This document shows, in pieces, positions 54-33,356 of a stretch of DNA of 64,000 nt. The first letter of the stretch is position 1, and every line of letters begins with the position of its first letter. This DNA is from an uncultured Lachnospiraceae bacterium. Its GTDB lineage: Bacteria; Bacillota; Clostridia; Lachnospirales; Lachnospiraceae. Position numbers and translations under genes: made by a program. The notes under the pieces were generated by a model that made no database searches, had not been told where the DNA came from, and saw only the letters and a program-made list of their open reading frames with translations. The DNA lies in assembly GCA_949840465.1 (NCBI GenBank), contig CATKXE010000007.1, positions 1 through 64,000 of the forward strand, written 5' to 3'.

Positions 54-189
54 CCATTCCCGCGAAGCAACGAGCCAGGTGGACATGTTTTTGTATGTCC
101 ATTTGGCGACTGCCGCGAGGGGCACATACCCCGCGGCTTGCCGCGCTGGAAATTTGATGCCTGTCAGCTTGCTGCGGGGTATGTGACTG
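54..189 (+). repeat. Modular intergenic repeat copy 1 (hairpin module A 54-120 + module B 121-189)
   Basis: TTCCCGCGAAGCAACGAGCCAGGTGGACATG-TTTTT-GTATGTCCATTTGGCGACTGCCGCGAGG followed by CACATACCCCGC...GCGGGGTATGTG; nearly the same sequence at 22742-22877 and inverted at 33171-33356. Confidence 0.9.
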
Positions 190-4248: not shown

Positions 4249-4318
4249 TCCCGCGAAGCAGCCACCGAAACAGAGTGTACGCCAAATACCCCGCAGATTG
4301 CCGCGGGGTATTTGACTT
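4249..4318 (+). repeat. Modular intergenic repeat copy 2 (5' end of A, tail of C, short B hairpin)
   Basis: ATCCCGCGAAGCAGCC-ACCGAAACAGAGTGTACGCC-AAATACCCCGCagattGCCGCGGGGTATTTGAC; lies between convergent genes. Confidence 0.8.
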
Positions 4319-17735: not shown

Positions 17736-17803
17736 ACCCCTGCGGCAACCGCCAAATGGACATACAAAAACATGCCTGCCTGGCTTAGTGCTTCGCGGGA
17801 ATA
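17736..17803 (-). repeat. Modular intergenic repeat copy 3 (module A only, inverted)
   Basis: Reverse complement reads TTCCCGCGAAGCACTAAGCCAGGCAGGCATG-TTTTT-GTATGTCCATTTGGCGGTTGCCGCAGGG. Confidence 0.85.
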
Positions 17804-17832
17804 AAAAATGATAAAAACAAAGGAGAAGAACC

Positions 17833-22145: not shown

Positions 22146-22249
22146 AGCGGCCGCCGGGAGTGTTGCTCCGTGTCGGCGGCACTTGTTTTTGCAGGGAACG
22201 AAAGGGAGTGTACACCAAATCCCCCGCAGCAAGCTGCGGGGGAGATTTT
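22146..22249 (+). repeat. Modular intergenic repeat copy 4 (degenerate C module + short B hairpin that reads as a terminator)
   Basis: GTGTCGGCGGCACTTG...AACGAAAGGGAGTGTACACCAAATCCCCCGCAGcaagCTGCGGGGGAGATTTTT; alignable to the C and B parts of 33171-33356. Confidence 0.7.
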
Positions 22250-22449: not shown

Positions 22450-22531
22450 CAACTTACTCGTCTTGGGACAAATCTTATTTCTTTGGGAGTATCATCCCAT
22501 TATCCAAACGCGAGGACATAGCTATGTTATT

Positions 22532-22597
22532 TATTCCCACGAAGCAATGAGCCAGGTGGACTTATTTTTGTATGTCCACCTGGCGACTGACACGAGT
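22532..22597 (+). repeat. Modular intergenic repeat copy 5 (module A only)
   Basis: TATTCCCACGAAGCAATGAGCCAGGTGGACTTATTTTTGTATGTCCACCTGGCGACTGACACGAG. Confidence 0.9.
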
Positions 22598-22741: not shown

Positions 22742-22877
22742 TTATTTCCGCGAAGCAACGAGCCAGGTGGACATGTGTTTGTATGTCCATTTGGCGACTG
22801 CCGCGAGGGTCAAATACCCCGCGGCTTGCTGCGCTGGAAATATGATGCCCCGTCAGCTTGCTGCGGGGTATTTGACT
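22742..22877 (+). repeat. Modular intergenic repeat copy 6 (module A 22742-22808 + module B 22809-22877)
   Basis: TTCCGCGAAGCAACGAGCCAGGTGGACATG...GTCAAATACCCCGCGGCTTGCTGCG...GTCAGCTTGCTGCGGGGTATTTGAC. Confidence 0.92.
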
Positions 22878-33170: not shown

Positions 33171-33356
33171 GTCAAAGACCCCGCAGCAAACTGACGGGGC
33201 GTCAAATTTCCGGCGCAGCAAGCCGCGGGGGATCTGGTCTTCACTCCGTTTCGGTCGTTGCCAGACAAGTGCCGCCGGCACTTAGCAACCCTCGCGGCAG
33301 TCGCCGGATGGACATACAAAAACATGTCCGTCCGGCCCGTTGCTTCGCGGAAATAA
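33171..33356 (-). repeat. Modular intergenic repeat copy 7 (complete A + C + B, inverted)
   Basis: Reverse complement: A CCGCGAAGCAACGGGCCGGACGGACATG-TTTTT-GTATGTCCATCCGGCGACTGCCGCGAGG; C GTTGCTAAGTGCCGGCGGCACTTGTCTGGCAAC; B CCCCCGCGGCTTGCTGCG...TTTGCTGCGGGGTCTTTGAC. Confidence 0.92.

Follow-up and report, generated by a model that had tools for sequence, protein, structure and literature searches.

A high-copy family of modular, hairpin-rich intergenic elements in Lachnospiraceae, probably spread as non-autonomous mobile DNA

Copies in the window and in the genome

Positions 33171 to 33356 of the window, by which we mean the entire 64,000-nucleotide stretch of DNA analysed here, hold a structured repeat and raise the question of what kind of sequence is dispersed in this form between bacterial genes, and by what means. 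The host genome (3.69 Mb, 206 contigs) belongs to the genus of Schaedlerella in the Lachnospiraceae. The window copies are best read as degraded members of a large family of gene-less, hairpin-rich, modular elements. An earlier inspection of the letters alone (the sequence-only reading) had claimed seven copies in the window, and all of them are present, with ungapped repeat identities of 64-94%. They are listed in Table 1 together with the modules of the single full-length copy.

Table 1. Copies of the element in the window and modules of copy 7
Feature	Position	Strand	Remarks
Copy 1	54..189	+	A + long B, without C; right stem CACATACCCC/GGGGTATGTG
Copy 2	4249..4318	+	internal deletion; A 5' end joined at AGCA(A/G)C to the tail of C; short B follows
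Copy 3	17736..17804	-	A only
Copy 4	22146..22249	+	decayed C (22163-22218) + short B
Copy 5	22531..22596	+	A only
Copy 6	22742..22877	+	A (22742-22807) + long B (22817-22876), without C
Copy 7	33171..33356	-	full-length A-C-long B; TTTATT target adjoins left (high-coordinate) end
Copy 7, module A	33291..33356	-	left end, stems P1 and P2
Copy 7, module C	33235..33288	-	hairpin plus tail CGACCGAAACGGAGTGAAGACC
Copy 7, module long B	33171..33230	-	right end, terminus TTTGACT

The genome-wide search that the sequence-only reading had proposed reveals a high-copy family. The full copy has 47 BLAST matches in its own genome, down to E=1e-101, which rules out chance resemblance, and for the 5' end of module A (TTATTCCCGCGAAGCAA, 2 mismatches or fewer) that genome has 104 occurrences, against 0 for the reversed pattern. 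Matches to the element are found in all 11 other genomes of the genus and in some other Lachnospiraceae genera; the phage and plasmid collections searched gave zero matches. The earlier reader had recognised no named family, in agreement with the Rfam search of the window (0 matches), and the full element is not an Rfam family. Our search of the open-access literature found no report of such Lachnospiraceae repeats, and queries with the conserved strings returned only an unrelated C. elegans paper. Hundreds of gene-less intergenic elements in a major gut bacterial family are without a matching entry found in Rfam or the literature.

In 0.86 Mb of the host genome, a sample partly picked for holding copies, we resolved 72 elements. 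Their composition is A 32, A-BL 7, BL 6, A-C-BL 5, A-C-BS 4, BS 4, A-BS 3, A-C 3, C 3, C-BS 2, C-BL 2 and A-BS-A 1 (BL and BS, long and short B). All copies had been described as intergenic, and this holds as a rule; a few touch gene ends, and most apparent overlaps are with short, unlikely ORFs. Copies lie closer to gene 3' ends (median 27-41 nt) than to 5' ends (96-109 nt), and neither orientation to the upstream gene prevails (21 vs 21). The G-rich strand, the expected lagging template, carries 47 of the 72 copies, a bias that is confounded by gene direction.

Organization of the element

A full element is about 190 nt long and consists, to the right of TTTATT, of modules A, C and B, ending in TTTGACT. 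The consensus, drawn from thirty copies of the host genome and the 72 elements in 0.86 Mb, reads TTTATT, then CCCGCGAAGCAACGAGCC-hairpin-GGCGACTGCCGCGAGGG (A), TTGCTAAGTGCCnnnGGCACTTGTTnAGCAACGACCGAAACGGAGTGTAGACC (C) and AAATACCCCGC...GGGGTATTTGACT (B). Family members range from about 60 to 190 nt, with no gene inside. Both termini are constant (CCCGCG directly after TTTATT on the left, TTTGACT on the right) and the interior is variable. Two forms of module B exist: the long one contains two CUUG-loop hairpins, the short one a single such hairpin.

The mix-and-match composition noticed from the window is real, and mostly comes down to the presence or absence of C and to deletions between short direct repeats; most variants can be traced to three events. 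In the first, C is there or missing as one unit at the A/B joint: in the host genome A and B stand 7 nt apart if C is missing, and mostly 58 nt apart if it is there. In the second, deletion between the copies of a direct repeat common to A and C (AGCAACGA) gives rise to the A-5'/C-tail fusions that are found at 4249-4318 and at two other loci. Finally, long B, in which GCTTGCTGCG occurs twice, would collapse to short B by deletion between these repeats; both forms are seen directly in the sequences, and the deletion itself is what we infer. The right end has left a remnant (e.g. GGTCTTTGAC) at the terminus of some A-only copies, which are therefore internal deletions; other A-only copies are truncated.

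Module C in other repeats and RNAs

Module C, a covarying hairpin followed by a near-invariant 20-nt tail, is common to other repeat families, a side of the module sharing that the earlier reader could not see. Of 150 Lachnospiraceae genomes, one for each genus, 64 have matches to its covariance model, and the number of copies reaches 34. The flanks collected fall into some 42-47 clearly distinct contexts, and both filled and empty sites exist. Across these backgrounds the hairpin covaries strongly, with 97-98% of cells paired, a level reached by 0 of 500 shuffles (in this as in our other covariation tests, the shuffles leave relatedness in the data). Positions 9 and 15 of the tail are A-T (20) or G-C (15), with one G-T and zero A-C, which implies a mini-hairpin (A/G)C-GGA-G(T/C). 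Tandem C hairpins also occur.

The A/B element is present in both C-filled and C-empty forms. In the A element of Coprococcus catus, C replaces ACT at GGCG-ACT-GCCGCG, and classes of 93 nt (without C) and 142 nt (with C) coexist; with filled and empty sites in one genome, the question can be put to the test in a strain that grows in culture. The Clostridiales-1 RNA (RF01699) is itself a high-copy dispersed repeat, with at least 38 matches in one genome; members at L042:1421-1640, L163:4190-4406 and L372-L374 carry C, which enters this RNA at two different positions, and the RNA also occurs empty. Filled and empty forms are likewise seen for a further dispersed repeat (around CCTCCGGCAG; TGATATAGCCTCCGGCAG...), with C in L166, L191 and L240 and without it in L426 and L430. 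In its C-free form this repeat separates tnpA from tnpB in an IS605-type element of C. catus; the IS605 spacer was accordingly rejected as a host of C, being a dispersed repeat in its own right. At L150:755-931, C fills the terminal loop of a yjdF (azaaromatic) riboswitch, upstream of a gene that we take to be yjdF. The presence of C in unrelated repeats, in an Rfam 'sRNA' family and in a riboswitch has a bearing on how far catalogued 'structured RNAs' could in truth be mobile DNA.

Three further occurrences deserve mention. In G087 (L378-L382), C lies within a TGTCATTCTGAGCGAA...-type repeat present in five near-identical copies. C is also found at L165:1054-1073, in a MAG labelled Muribaculaceae (Bacteroidota), possibly through a binning error. 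A string match to the C tail at L239:3437-3488, with a poor hairpin and apparently within a coding region, is probably due to chance.

Loops and junctions recur among the hosts of C. The idea of an obligatory stem of flanking sequence around C was rejected (14%, against 8.5% among shuffled flank pairs; p=0.19), and because this general test came out negative the loop preference may reflect survival rather than targeting. A reading in which C is itself a mobile unit is tentative and, in our judgement, rather unlikely: this 50-55 nt hairpin with its mini-hairpin tail would enter loops and junctions of folded elements, a riboswitch included, by a structure-guided single-strand mechanism, and so build composite RNAs and repeats across the Lachnospiraceae.

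Insertion site

The six positions to the left of the element (-6 to -1) in the host genome are T.75, T.89, T.78, A.95, T.94 and T.97 (n=80), and TTTATT precedes CCCGCG in most copies of other genomes as well (n=35). At four tandem junctions TTTGACT is followed directly by CCCGCG, TCCGCG, CCCACG or GCCGCG, with no TTTATT between them; TTTATT is therefore the target and not part of the element. The element is missing at four loci from relatives in which the neighbouring genes are the same, the intergenic flanks of these relatives being too diverged for base-exact empty sites; in one of these four gaps G001 carries an A element of its own at a different position.

In C. catus nearly every C-bearing copy begins where the T-tract of an intrinsic terminator stops. 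Of 18 flanks, 17 have a strong hairpin and, behind it, a T-tract that runs up to the insertion point with ATT or similar as its last bases; this count leaves out two further flanks which were false positives of the pattern. Among control TTTATT sites, 10-17% have a strong hairpin. In a wider C. catus set, 27 of 31 have a hairpin of -10 kcal/mol or below, not all of them good terminators. In Limivivens the pattern is seen by eye in about half of the copies. The signal in the host genome is weak (27% vs 16.5% of controls; by another measure 15% vs 5%, p=0.035). Terminator targeting was consequently rejected as a general rule, since it applies to C. catus, partly to Limivivens and hardly at all to other members of the genus. 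The modular build, the terminator target in C. catus and the sharing of C bear on how short mobile DNA arises.

Mode of spread

We consider it probable that this is a non-autonomous mobile DNA family which inserts 3' of TTTATT and would be mobilised in trans by a hairpin-recognising enzyme of Y1/HUH type. A composite MITE-like element was one of the two options offered by the sequence-only reading, and it is supported by the fixed termini, the variable interior, the empty sites, the target preference and the high copy number. Insertion would take place 3' of TTTATT, which often belongs to the T-tract of an intrinsic terminator, and the element's hairpins would be recognised as folded single-stranded DNA by an IS200/IS605-like enzyme supplied in trans. 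Module C would be a separable hairpin unit, independently joined to many other repeats and RNAs. After insertion, existing copies would decay at their sites. A Y1 (IS200/IS605-type) single-strand route is the most likely but unproven mobilising mechanism, because there are no clear duplications, the tandem junctions are target-free, hairpins lie at both ends and there is a modest strand excess (47/72); the tandem copies could have come from recombination.

No mobilising transposase with matching ends was found. The only Y1 gene of the host genome belongs to an IS200 whose ends are different, and no Y1 genes were detected in the carriers G002, G010, G102, G125 and G013. Of 30 Y1 loci scanned in the genus, none lies between A and B ends that match; at five, all in G007, there are B-like hairpins only. 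No autonomous IS200/IS605 relative with both ends common to the element was found, and no long LE..RE pair within 3 kb was seen in C. catus.

It is improbable that the copies are MITEs moved by a DDE transposase, in which case TTTATT would belong to the end of the element and the duplication would have become unrecognisable in old copies through decay. MITEs such as BOX have duplications (PMC3049150), and a scan of 19 old full copies gave a weak excess of flank matches (best z 3.4 over 315 offsets), unconvincing as a duplication yet not plainly noise, if TTTATT is counted as element; however, CCCGCG and TTTGACT form no terminal inverted repeat, no duplication was seen by eye in the young, near-identical C. 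catus copies, and TTTATT is missing from the tandem junctions.

Structure bears on whether the copies are instead functional structured RNAs (an sRNA, a 3'UTR element or a terminator cassette) selected at each site, which we regard as quite improbable. The full copy folds exceptionally well as RNA (z -3.6) but equally so as DNA (z -4.9). The arms of B covary between copies: within copies they are paired in 107 of 114 cases, vs 94.4 in shuffles. C covaries between families, and A does so between species, its observed pairing being reached by 0 of 500 shuffles; a small correction to the three-hairpin structure described earlier is that the A hairpin shows no covariation beyond shuffles among copies of the host genome. 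A strand-specific wobble (G.T vs A.C) was rejected, with p only about 0.05. The stable RNA fold, the covariation of A and C, the proximity to gene 3' ends and the presence of C inside known RNAs favour a functional RNA. Against it, the pairs of A are lost on decay, orientation to the upstream gene is not fixed, the window copy has no promoter or terminator match, copies are missing at orthologous sites, and C. catus copies start just past terminators, where transcription has normally stopped. The second option of the sequence-only reading, a structured RNA or terminator cassette, is not supported, in view of the same loss of A pairs, even orientation, lack of promoter and terminator, and position beyond the terminator. 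We read the hairpin structure as serving the spread of source copies, rather than service at each site.

Spread by a reverse transcriptase, which would insert copies of a SINE-like RNA at the T-tracts of terminators, has a similarly low probability. Group IIC introns target terminators, the C. catus insertions lie at the end of terminator T-tracts, the structure is RNA-like and C. catus has one group II RT. In the host genome, however, no group II RT was detected, only a protein of PrimPol-RT type; the window copy has no group II intron match in Rfam (E up to 10); its 5' end is CCCGCG, not GTGYG; and most copies outside C. catus and Limivivens are not at terminators. The sole RVT_1 match in the host genome (L385:946-3354, minus strand) is an 802-aa putative primase-polymerase/RT fusion, overlapped downstream by another protein. 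An omega-RNA of TnpB was dismissed, PF07282 being absent from the host genome.

Comparison with known systems

By its build the family is most like BOX (PMC3049150), and by its presumed mode most like REP or IS200-derived elements (PMC2817692, PMC6006769), yet for each of these classes it lacks a defining feature that was tested. BOX elements of Streptococcus pneumoniae and S. suis have terminal inverted repeats, target duplications and tandem boxB arrays; they share with our element the end modules with an optional internal module, the intergenic, high-copy, structured and gene-less state, and co-occurrence with and insertion into other repeats (PMC3049150). The Lachnospiraceae element differs in having no inverted repeat or clear duplication, in its target TTTATT, in a C that is usually single and in its unrelated sequence.

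REP/BIME sequences, which go with RAYT transposases, are likewise short intergenic hairpins in more than 100 copies, with in-trans Y1 mobilisation on single-stranded DNA inferred (PMC2817692, PMC6006769). Their definition includes a tetranucleotide, GTAG or GTGG, on the 5' side of the hairpin foot (PMC6006769), whereas the present element is larger, has TTTATT before CCCGCG and no apparent GTAG/GTGG, and no RAYT was found beside its copies. Group IIC introns resemble it in terminator insertion and differ in their ends; the element has no intron domains or RT. The Clostridiales-1 RNA is also a dispersed, high-copy structured repeat of the same bacteria, some members of which carry C, but A and B are not Clostridiales-1, and RF01699 has 0 matches in the window and 0 in the host genome.

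IS200/IS605 elements make no target duplication and have a fixed AT-rich target on the left, features that the Lachnospiraceae element may share, and like it they have hairpins near both ends; the Lachnospiraceae element differs in having no internal transposase, and the ends of the G007 IS200 are different (TTTAATCTCTC...GTTTATT). This IS200-type element of G007, with five copies (L110:1320-1995 and L111-L114), has B-like CCCCGCAGCTTGCTGCG hairpins at both ends and is the nearest lead.
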